A stretch of DNA of 50,831 nt, taken from Candidatus Sulfopaludibacter sp. SbA3 (lineage in GTDB: Bacteria > Acidobacteriota > Terriglobia > Bryobacterales > Bryobacteraceae). Below are positions 2 through 2,743 of this stretch, in pieces; within the stretch, counting starts at the first letter, position 1, and each line of letters opens with the position of its first letter. Position numbers and translations under genes: made by a program. The notes beneath the pieces were generated by a model that was not told the origin of the DNA, made no database searches, and saw nothing but the letters and a program-made list of their open reading frames with translations. The stretch covers positions 1 through 50,831 of the forward strand of contig CAMATG010000002.1 of the NCBI GenBank assembly GCA_945860645.1, in the 5' to 3' direction.

Positions 2-601
2 TTTGTGTGGAGCATGCATGGGAGCGGGGCGACGATTTTCGTGCCGAACCTGCATCCGTTCAGCTACTACAACACGCGGTACGGGATGATTGTGCTGCCG
101 CTGTTGGCGCTGGCGGTGGCGTCGTTACCGGCGGTGTTGCCGCACGGAAGCCGGCGGATTGTGACGGGGTTGCTGGTGCTGAATGCGGTGAGCCCGTGGC
201 TGGCGTATCCGAAGCAGGAGAACTGGGTGACGTGGAAAGAGAGCCAGGTGAACAGCAACGGGCGGCGGGCGTGGACGGCGGAGGCGGCGGATTATCTACG
301 CGATAAATATGTCCCGGGGCGGGGAATTGTGGCGCATTTTGGCGACCAGACGGCGATTTTCCGGGATGCGGGGATTCCGCTGGCGCAGACGGTGCACGAC
401 GGGGACGGGTTGTATTTTCAGGGTATTCTGCAGCGGCCGGACCTGTTCCTGTGGCAGGAGTGGGTGGTGGCGATCGCGGGGGATCCGCTGTCGAAAAGCA
501 TGGCGGAAAATGCTTCGAAGCTGCGGAGGTACTCCCGTGTGAAAATGGTAGAGACGAAAGGTGAGCCGGCGATAGAAATCTGGCGGCGGTCGACTCCTTA
601 A
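2..601 (+). CDS. Polytopic membrane glycosyltransferase-like protein, C-terminal part
   Basis: The reading frame is open to the left edge, so the gene is cut by the window; the GTG at base 5 in the ORF track is probably internal. The visible part begins with a segment resembling NLHPFSYYNTRYGM followed by a hydrophobic stretch (LPLLALAVASLPAV) and a second one (TGLLVLNAVSPWLAY), then a soluble tail of about 120 residues. The YNTRYGM-then-helix pattern is what I associate with dolichyl-phosphate-mannose/ArnT-like membrane glycosyltransferases, whose last helices precede a periplasmic domain. This would fit the neighbouring nucleotide-sugar dehydrogenase, but the catalytic N-terminus is outside the window. 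It ends 6 bp before the DapF-family gene and is probably co-transcribed with it. The family call is tentative. Confidence 0.5.
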   Translation, partial: FVWSMHGSGATIFVPNLHPFSYYNTRYGMIVLPLLALAVASLPAVLPHGSRRIVTGLLVLNAVSPWLAYPKQENWVTWKESQVNSNGRRAWTAEAADYLRDKYVPGRGIVAHFGDQTAIFRDAGIPLAQTVHDGDGLYFQGILQRPDLFLWQEWVVAIAGDPLSKSMAENASKLRRYSRVKMVETKGEPAIEIWRRSTP

Positions 602-607
602 ACCTGT

Positions 608-1423
608 ATGGAAATTCCATTTACGAAAGCCCACGGGGCTCGCAACGACTTTTTGCTGACGTGGGCGGACGAGGCCCCAGGCGAGGGGTTGGCGGAAGCG
701 GCGATTGCGATTTGTGACCGGCATACGGGCGCGGGCGCGGATGGATGGTTGCTGGTTTCGCGGCTGGACAATCCGCCGGAGGGCGGGGACCTGCGCATCC
801 GGCTGTTTAACCCCGATGGCGGGGAAGTGGAGATGTCGGGCAACGGAACGCGTTGCGCGGCGGCGTTCGCGCTGGCCAACGGCTATACGGGCACGGAGAT
901 GCGGATTGTGACGGGCGGGGGCACGAAGCATCTGCGGCTTTTGGAGCATAGCGGGCAGAAGTACCTGTTCGAGATGAACATGGGTTGTCCGCGGGTGGAA
1001 CCGGACGAGGTTCGCTGCGCGCTGAGCGTGGGTGACGAGATTTACGACTGCACGATTCTGTGGGTGGGCAACCCGCAGTGCGCGGTGTTTGTGGAGAATT
1101 TTGATTTCGACTGGCGATCGCTGGGCGCGGCGATCGAACGGCATCCGCGGTTTCCGAACCGGACGAATGTTTCGTTCGTGCGCCATATGGATGGGCTGAA
1201 CATCGATGTCCGGTTTTTTGAGCGTGGCGCTGGGGAGACGATGAGCTCCGGCACGGGTTCGACCGGGGCGGCGGTGGCGTCTATTCTGCGCGGATTTACG
1301 GGGCGCGCGATGACCGTGAACACGCCTGCCGGACCGTTAGAGTTCCGGTGGCCGACCAATGACGGCGATGTAAAGATGGTTGGCCCAGCAGAAATTGTCG
1401 CGACCGGCCGATATTACCTTTAG
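608..1423 (+). CDS. dapF: DapF-family epimerase with both catalytic cysteines replaced by serine
   Basis: Family: diaminopimelate epimerases interconvert LL- and meso-diaminopimelate with a two-cysteine acid/base pair, in the lysine and peptidoglycan route. The 271 aa length, the N-terminal HGARNDF block, the NPDGGEVE block and the ERGAGET block near residue 205 are clear family marks. The first catalytic motif, normally CGNGxRC, reads SGNGTRC (Ser77). The second, normally ACGTG or ACGSG, reads SSGTG (Ser214). The conserved GNPH block reads GNPQ (Gln157). Fold and substrate-binding glycines are kept, so the gene looks intact rather than decayed. It may be a lineage variant with different chemistry, or a paralogue with another substrate. 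It sits between a glycosyltransferase-like gene and a nucleotide-sugar dehydrogenase. No clear ribosome-binding site is seen before the ATG. Confidence 0.8.
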   Translation: MEIPFTKAHGARNDFLLTWADEAPGEGLAEAAIAICDRHTGAGADGWLLVSRLDNPPEGGDLRIRLFNPDGGEVEMSGNGTRCAAAFALANGYTGTEMRIVTGGGTKHLRLLEHSGQKYLFEMNMGCPRVEPDEVRCALSVGDEIYDCTILWVGNPQCAVFVENFDFDWRSLGAAIERHPRFPNRTNVSFVRHMDGLNIDVRFFERGAGETMSSGTGSTGAAVASILRGFTGRAMTVNTPAGPLEFRWPTNDGDVKMVGPAEIVATGRYYL

Positions 1424-1438
1424 GAGTGTTTGGATCCG

Positions 1439-2743
1439 ATGAGCCATTTTGAGTTTCTAGCGAACAAGATTCAGAACCGTACCGCGGTGTCGGGAATTGT
1501 GGGGCTGGGCTATGTGGGCCTGCCGCTGGCGGTTGAGTTCGCGCGTGCCGGTTTGCCGGTTTTGGGTTTTGACATTACCCAGTCCAAGGTGGACACGCTG
1601 AACCGCGGGGAGTCCTATATTCAGGACGTTCCGACGTCGGTGCTGGGGCCGCATGTGGCTTCGGGGAAGTTGTCGGCGACGAGCGATTTCGCGCGGATGG
1701 CGGAGGTGGACACAATCAACATCTGCGTGCCGACGCCATTGCGGAAGACGAAAGATCCGGACATGTCCTATATCGTCGCGGCGACGGAGAAGATCGCGCA
1801 GTATCTGCATCCGGGGATGTTGATTATCCTGGAATCGACGACCTATCCGGGGACGACGGACGAGCTGCTGCTGCCGATGCTGGAGAAGAGTGGCCTGAAG
1901 TGCGGCGTGGACTTCTTCCTGTGCTTTTCGCCGGAGCGGGTGGACCCGGGCAATCCGAACTTCCAGACCTACAACATTCCGAAAGTGGTGGGCGGGATTA
2001 CGCCGGCCTGTACGGAGCTGGGGCGGATGTTCTATGCCCAGTCGTTGCAGACGGTGGTGCCGGTGAGTTCGACGAGCGTGGCGGAGATGGTGAAGCTGTT
2101 GGAAAACACCTTCCGCATGATCAATATCGGCATGGTGAACGAGCTGGCGCTGATGTGCGACCGGATGAAGATCAACGTGTGGGAAGTGATCGACGCGGCG
2201 GCGACCAAGCCGTTCGGCTTCATGCCCTTTTATCCGGGGCCGGGGCTGGGCGGGCACTGCATTCCGATCGACCCGTTCTACCTGAGCTGGAAGACGCGGC
2301 AGGCGGGCATTGAGGCGCGATTTATCGAGCTGGCCGGCTACATTAACGGCCAGATGCCGCATTTTGTGGTGGACAAGATTCAGTCCGCGTTGAACGACCA
2401 TTCGAAGGCTGTGAAGGGTTCGCACATCCACATTTTGGGCGTGGCGTACAAGAAGAATATCGACGACGTGCGCGAGTCGCCGGCGCTGGACATTATTCAC
2501 TTGTTGCAGGAACGCGGGGCCCGGATTACCTACAGCGATCCGTATGTGGAAGACCTGCATCACGAGGGGCAGGAGCTGGAAGCCAGCGACGTGGCCGAAG
2601 GGTGCACCGCGGCTGATTGCGTGGTGATTGTCACCGATCACAAGGACTTCGTTTACACGGATGTTCTGGCGGCGTCCAAGCTGATTGTGGACACGCGGAA
2701 TGCGATGAAGGGTCTGGTTTCGGAGAAGATTGTCCGGCTTTAG
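1439..2743 (+). CDS. wbpA: UDP-N-acetylglucosamine 6-dehydrogenase (WbpA type)
   Basis: Nucleotide-sugar dehydrogenase that oxidises C6 of a UDP-hexosamine in two NAD-dependent steps to give a UDP-hexosaminuronic acid for polysaccharide or O-antigen synthesis in the cytoplasm. The Rossmann motif GLGYVG is at residues 22-27. The catalytic block GLGGHCIPIDPFYL carries the nucleophile at about Cys274. A C-terminal UDP-binding domain follows (LGVAYKKNIDDVRESPAL). The length of 434 aa and the HCIPIDPFYL wording match WbpA/WecC-like enzymes better than UDP-glucose dehydrogenases. The ORF track starts at a TTG (1430), but that codon is only 3 nt from the AGGAG at 1422-1426; the ATG at 1439 has a usable 12-nt spacing. 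It probably forms an operon with the DapF-family gene 15 bp upstream, and its stop overlaps the stop of the convergent beta-barrel gene. Confidence 0.88.
   Translation: MSHFEFLANKIQNRTAVSGIVGLGYVGLPLAVEFARAGLPVLGFDITQSKVDTLNRGESYIQDVPTSVLGPHVASGKLSATSDFARMAEVDTINICVPTPLRKTKDPDMSYIVAATEKIAQYLHPGMLIILESTTYPGTTDELLLPMLEKSGLKCGVDFFLCFSPERVDPGNPNFQTYNIPKVVGGITPACTELGRMFYAQSLQTVVPVSSTSVAEMVKLLENTFRMINIGMVNELALMCDRMKINVWEVIDAAATKPFGFMPFYPGPGLGGHCIPIDPFYLSWKTRQAGIEARFIELAGYINGQMPHFVVDKIQSALNDHSKAVKGSHIHILGVAYKKNIDDVRESPALDIIHLLQERGARITYSDPYVEDLHHEGQELEASDVAEGCTAADCVVIVTDHKDFVYTDVLAASKLIVDTRNAMKGLVSEKIVRL

Follow-up and report, generated by a model that had tools for sequence, protein, structure and literature searches.

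A DapF homologue with serine at both catalytic cysteine positions and its distribution in the Acidobacteriota

The dapF locus and its predicted protein

The window analysed here, the whole 50,831-nucleotide stretch of contig CAMATG010000002.1 from Candidatus Sulfopaludibacter sp. SbA3, begins with the end of a membrane protein gene, which is followed on the same strand by a homologue of the diaminopimelate (DAP) epimerase gene dapF and, 6 bases past its stop codon, by a gene for a nucleotide-sugar dehydrogenase (Table 1). The dapF reading frame starts with ATG, is intact and encodes a full-length DapF homologue. This protein scores 186.5 bits with the equivalog profile TIGR00652, for which the curated cut-off is 114.65, and PF01678 matches both of its halves. 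No other Pfam family was found up to an E value of 1, and the proline racemase superfamily profile PF05544 gave no match. A co-directional membrane protein gene also lies upstream of dapF in 48 of 73 loci of the Ser/Ser type described below; a full-length homologue of this membrane protein (homologues occur for example at L053) had no match in Pfam or NCBIfam.

Table 1. Positions in the window of dapF, its neighbours and the codons for three unusual residues (E. coli numbering for the alignment columns)
Feature	Position	Strand	Basis
Multi-spanning membrane protein gene, 3' part, cut by window start	2..601	+	
dapF homologue, Ser/Ser type, 271 aa	608..1423	+	TIGR00652, PF01678, AlphaFold2 model
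Codon TCG, Ser77, at catalytic Cys73 column	836..838	+	alignment
Codon CAG, Gln157, at His159 column	1076..1078	+	alignment
Codon TCC, Ser214, at catalytic Cys217 column	1247..1249	+	alignment
Nucleotide-sugar dehydrogenase gene	1430..2743	+	TIGR03026 442 bits; Pfam UDPG_MGDP_dh domains

The initial annotation had proposed that serine replaces both catalytic cysteines of this protein and that glutamine replaces a conserved histidine, and direct reading of the sequence together with an alignment to E. coli DapF bears this out. Ser77 (in the motif EVEMSGNGTRC), Gln157 (WVGNPQC) and Ser214 (FERGAGETMSSGTG) fall exactly on Cys73, His159 and Cys217 of the E. coli enzyme, which rules out that the cysteines are simply shifted by one residue. 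Sequencing error is also excluded, since the same residues, the Ser/Ser pair among them, stand in all independently assembled relatives. The codon TCC is one base away from the cysteine codon TGC, and TCG is two bases away. As the cysteine pair that defines the two-cysteine DAP epimerases is replaced by Ser77 and Ser214, the window protein is not filed among them, and the histidine of the GNPH motif is likewise replaced.

The AlphaFold2 model of the protein has a pLDDT of 96.1, and its best match in the PDB is the DAP epimerase 9mro (Z 36.6, rmsd 1.6 over 259 residues), a closed, inhibitor-bound DapF that outranks the apo forms. The predicted structure is the DapF fold of two pseudosymmetric domains. 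Both serines are placed in the model immediately before a helix (residues 78-90 for Ser77 and 215-227 for Ser214), as are the cysteines in DapF.

Distribution and ancestry of the Ser/Ser type

The genome from which the window comes is 75.6% complete and in 857 contigs, and within that coverage no second PF01678 protein was found at an E value of 0.001. When 60 relatives were added, 57 of the 61 genomes had a match to TIGR00652, of the Ser/Ser type wherever both positions could be read. A search of the 61 genomes with a Cys-type profile, in which weak matches (E >= 0.005) were left aside, found no second full-length DapF. A two-cysteine copy, for which the initial annotation had advised a search of the same genome, was therefore encountered neither in this incomplete assembly nor in its relatives.

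Across the phylum we sampled 396 genomes and read sequences for most families, counting three oddly named records as Acidobacteriota. This gave 177 distinct Ser/Ser, 42 Cys/Cys and 4 Cys/Ser sequences, whereas DapF from the other phyla sampled was Cys/Cys throughout (32/32). All Cys/Ser sequences are Cys73/Ser217, and the converse form, Ser73/Cys217, did not occur among the sequences typed. The earlier suggestion that Ser/Ser might mark a clade or lineage holds in that, in alignments and trees, the type spans much of the Acidobacteriota and is not a local oddity; it does not extend to the whole phylum, as DapF is Cys/Cys or Cys/Ser in about four of every ten sampled families. A scan of a genome collection yielded 80 named loci that split cleanly by lineage, with Ser/Ser in Bryobacterales, Terriglobales, Blastocatellia, Aminicenantes and other Acidobacteriota, and Cys/Cys in Geobacter, Lachnospiraceae, Planctomycetes, WOR-1 and others; the scan leans to Ser/Ser in that one of its two patterns demands serine first, the Cys/Cys records coming through the other. 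Three of its Ser/Ser records carry other names, namely Bacterium HR08, HR10 and a MAG titled Arcobacter. The DapF of this last shares 61% identity with the window protein, and the MAG probably bears the wrong name.

Most genomes of the phylum hold one DapF, and whether it is Ser/Ser or Cys/Cys differs by family. This suggests that the two types are mostly alternatives, as would be expected if both do the same job. That most sampled lineages of the phylum carry the Ser/Ser type, usually as the sole copy and with the remaining substrate-binding residues retained, also suggests that a reaction believed to require two thiols can proceed in their absence. Some genomes of two families contain both a Ser/Ser and a divergent Cys/Cys DapF: in family f29 these are L097, L245, L246 and L277 with L261, L262 and L318, and in family f55 L249 and L254 with L263 and L248. 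Other genomes of the same genus, g69, have only Cys/Cys DapF.

Phylogenetic trees were built without the three columns for Cys73, His159 and Cys217. The main Ser/Ser clade was supported in two trees (SH-aLRT 98 and 94), and serine occupies both catalytic positions in all 66 of its members in the tree, as cysteine does in all 14 non-acidobacterial sequences. Conservation of the pair across the aligned main-clade sequences is far beyond chance. A small group of LRIF-type sequences falls outside this clade in a free quick tree; its separate origin is unsupported, as a tree that holds the Ser/Ser members of the first sequence set together has the higher likelihood. A single origin for all Ser/Ser sequences of that first set is thus fully compatible with the trees. 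Families f9 and f36 (L295 and L288) form, in addition, a second Ser/Ser group, nested in another acidobacterial DapF lineage that is mostly Cys/Cys with some Cys/Ser. When a single origin was forced on all Ser/Ser sequences the tree was 46.6 log units worse and was not rejected (AU p 0.097). It is nevertheless probable that Ser/Ser arose at least twice, because the second group shares its GVP motif and a one-residue insertion with the neighbouring Cys/Cys and Cys/Ser sequences. The lineage with GVPH in place of GNPH (L288, L295, L129, L282, L297, L303) includes Cys/Cys, Cys73/Ser217 and Ser/Ser members, the last with phenylalanine for the histidine, and this suggests that thiols were lost there in parallel and stepwise.

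The change at His159 has a different history. The histidine is kept in 39 of the 66 main-clade sequences and in all 14 non-acidobacterial ones, and it has been lost inside the Ser/Ser clade, to glutamine in the order to which the window belongs and to glutamine, valine or asparagine in other families. As many Ser/Ser families outside that order keep the histidine, the change to glutamine is distinct from that to the Ser/Ser pair and arose later, nested within the clade that carries the pair. The initial annotation had listed the three substitutions together; Gln157 is real, but it is a separate and later event.

Substrate contacts, metabolic context and the proposed reaction

The residues that contact DAP (N11, N64, N157, N190, E208 and R209, corresponding to N13, N68, N155, N187, E205 and R206 in the window), whose binding roles have been described for Anabaena DapF (PMC12039745), are invariant in the 66 main-clade sequences. 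Among columns conserved in the clade (>= 80%), only 73, 217 and 82, where alanine replaces lysine or arginine, hold a residue that is rare in other phyla. This alanine is present in 89% of the main clade and is Ala86 in the window (863-865). No cysteine specific to Ser/Ser proteins that might compensate for the lost pair was found, since Cys36, Cys83 and Cys158, which are frequent and present in the window protein, also occur in Cys/Cys enzymes. The protein is under strong purifying selection, and the conservation pattern is that of an enzyme retained for the same substrate and not that of decay.

The surrounding metabolism points in the same direction. LysA acts on the D-centre of meso-DAP, and both LysA and MurE of the DNPR type use meso-DAP, so that an epimerase is needed. 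Each of the 61 genomes has a match to LysA and to MurE, and the meso-DAP motif DNPR was present in all 12 MurE proteins read. A bypass through DAP dehydrogenase is absent from the relatives: the DAPDH_C domain was found in 0 of the 61 genomes, and the enzyme scored above its cut-off in only 2 of the 396 genomes of the phylum, both of genus g75, sampled members of which have a Cys/Cys DapF. The aminotransferase DapL was rejected as a marker of the LL-DAP route; its best match lies under all LL-DAP aminotransferase cut-offs and resembles an alanine transaminase relative. The Ser/Ser DapF is the only epimerase candidate found, an argument limited by MAG incompleteness and by G058 and G060, both of them good genomes from the same class, which have LysA and a DNPR-type MurE and in which no DapF was detected. 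Given these two, another route to meso-DAP may exist. A PF01678 protein was also not found in the fairly complete genomes G305, G321 and G164, and DapF is absent in all from 8 of 337 good genomes of the phylum (2.4%), a frequency that assembly gaps alone could explain.

These observations bear on the possibility that the DapF fold here binds DAP without epimerising it, in a sensing or regulatory role, while an unrelated enzyme makes meso-DAP. Loss of the catalytic thiols would agree with such a role, as would G058 and G060, the coexisting Cys/Cys copies in f29 and f55, and the finding that E. coli DapF activates RppH even when C73A/C217A has abolished its catalysis (PMC4227774). We think it unlikely, as a dead site is expected to drift, yet serine is fixed and every substrate contact is kept; the type moreover alternates with Cys/Cys by family with mostly one DapF per genome, and the few genomes lacking DapF are explicable by gaps. 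LL-DAP walls exist in some actinobacteria, and the protein could in principle be a relic in bacteria whose walls contain LL-DAP and which have no need of epimerisation. E. coli dapF mutants are viable while accumulating LL-DAP (in part PMC6254735). Against the universal presence of LysA in the 61 genomes, the DNPR motif of MurE and the purifying selection on the protein, however, this is a very improbable explanation.

The gene neighbourhood offers a further indication. In Terriglobales the Ser/Ser dapF is followed by ldcA (LD-carboxypeptidase) and mpl in 12 of 12 loci, with Mpl above the TIGR01081 cut-off and both Peptidase_S66 domains found, and these two genes belong to the recycling of meso-DAP peptides. 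Genes dapA, dapB, dapD, dapE and lysA were not found near Ser/Ser dapF within the flanks fetched, nor were dapA, dapB, dapD, dapE or dapF found adjoining lysA. Another chemistry within the DapF fold, such as dehydration by beta-elimination of a DAP-like amino acid that bears a hydroxyl group, or racemisation of some other amino acid, would be in keeping with the loss of the thiol pair by which the epimerases are defined and with the Cys/Cys DapF of some f29 and f55 genomes. It has precedents in the Ser/Thr pairs of the proline racemase superfamily, which belong to trans-3-hydroxyproline dehydratase and not to epimerisation (PMC4113996), and in a Cys-to-Thr change that made an epimerase a dehydratase (PMC8142540). 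Even so we regard it as distinctly unlikely: all the DAP-specific distal contacts are invariant, ldcA and mpl are concerned with meso-DAP peptides, and most Ser/Ser genomes would be left with no epimerase though relatives keep LysA and MurE.

The initial annotation offered two readings, a new activity or epimerisation without thiols, and the data thus favour the second without proving it. We consider it fairly probable, from conservation, context and the predicted fold, that the window DapF converts LL-DAP to meso-DAP as a thiol-free epimerase using its serine pair. The thiols of DapF would give way, as acid and base, to the hydroxyls of the two serines, which would lie on opposite faces of the alpha-carbon of the substrate and at the same helix N-termini as those thiols. 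Ser77 would abstract the alpha-proton from LL-DAP with assistance from the N-terminus of its helix and from the network stabilising the carboxylate of the substrate; on the opposite face a proton would be returned by Ser214 or by a water. The reaction would probably run more slowly than with the Cys/Cys form. The Cys/Ser sequences of the second lineage, all Cys73/Ser217, fit a stepwise loss of thiols. In Anabaena DapF, LL-aziDAP is captured by the equivalent of Cys73 and DL-aziDAP by that of Cys217, so that the order through Cys73/Ser217 would keep the LL-DAP-side thiol longest. For the wider proposal, that much of the phylum makes meso-DAP through a DapF with two serines and no catalytic cysteine, which evolved at least twice in the Acidobacteriota and in one lineage alongside Cys/Ser, we find the case evenly balanced.

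Several points speak against a thiol-free epimerase. As an acid or base, serine is much weaker than a thiol. HisR, a racemase of the DapF fold, loses most of its activity when a single cysteine is changed to serine (PMC11602996), and mutants of this kind serve in crystallography to impede catalysis (PMC12039745). At least in f29 and f55 the Ser/Ser copy may have another role, because it coexists there with Cys/Cys DapF in some genomes. Nor need a feeble or missing DapF be fatal, as E. coli dapF mutants survive. As to what could be gained, C. glutamicum DapF is inactivated when its two cysteines join in a disulfide (PMC5296763). Redox protection is, by analogy with this, a possible advantage of Ser/Ser. 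The type is, however, also present in Aminicenantes, a group regarded as largely anaerobic.

Significance and comparison with known systems

In the open-access literature searched, which omits most subscription journals, no report was found of a Ser/Ser DapF or of the diamino acid in the cell wall of Acidobacteriota, and in this phylum, abundant in soil, so elementary a step in making lysine and cell wall seems to have gone unchecked. Annotation of DapF by profile hides missing catalytic residues. It is a standing puzzle of the cofactor-independent racemases how a thiolate with a pKa of about 8.5 removes a proton with a pKa of about 29, and the thiol pair is regarded as central to its solution. 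An enzyme from nature that retains almost everything but the two thiols would show whether they are needed, or whether binding and the helix N-termini do most of the work. If the Ser/Ser DapF is such an enzyme, it would be insensitive to oxidation at both positions and to thiol-directed inhibitors, and DapF inhibitors of this kind should spare bacteria that carry it.

The closest known systems are instructive in different ways. The window protein resembles the two-cysteine DapF of E. coli, H. influenzae, Arabidopsis and Anabaena in fold, length, closed conformation, the six DAP contacts and a TIGR00652 score above the cut-off, and differs in having serine for both cysteines, alanine for Lys/Arg82 and, in its own order, glutamine for His159. 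Engineered H. influenzae DapF C73S and C217S (PDB 2q9h and 2q9j; Z about 32 to the model) have serine at the same positions one at a time, as single mutants and not as a natural double form. The 4-hydroxyproline epimerase B9JQV3 (PMC4113996), of the same fold class, has a Ser-Cys pair in which serine is one of the two acid/base residues and so provides a precedent for serine catalysis in a genuine epimerase, but it keeps one cysteine, acts on another substrate and has low sequence identity to the window protein. Trans-3-hydroxyproline dehydratase B9K4G4 (PMC4113996) shares with it a cysteine-free pair with the catalytic serine first, but has threonine second, another substrate and elimination chemistry. 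The aspartate/glutamate racemases EcL-DER and MMP0739 (PMC8142540), for which one-directional catalysis is reported or predicted, offer a natural swap of thiol for hydroxyl (Cys to Thr) in cofactor-independent enzymes, although in another fold family and with a single thiol replaced.
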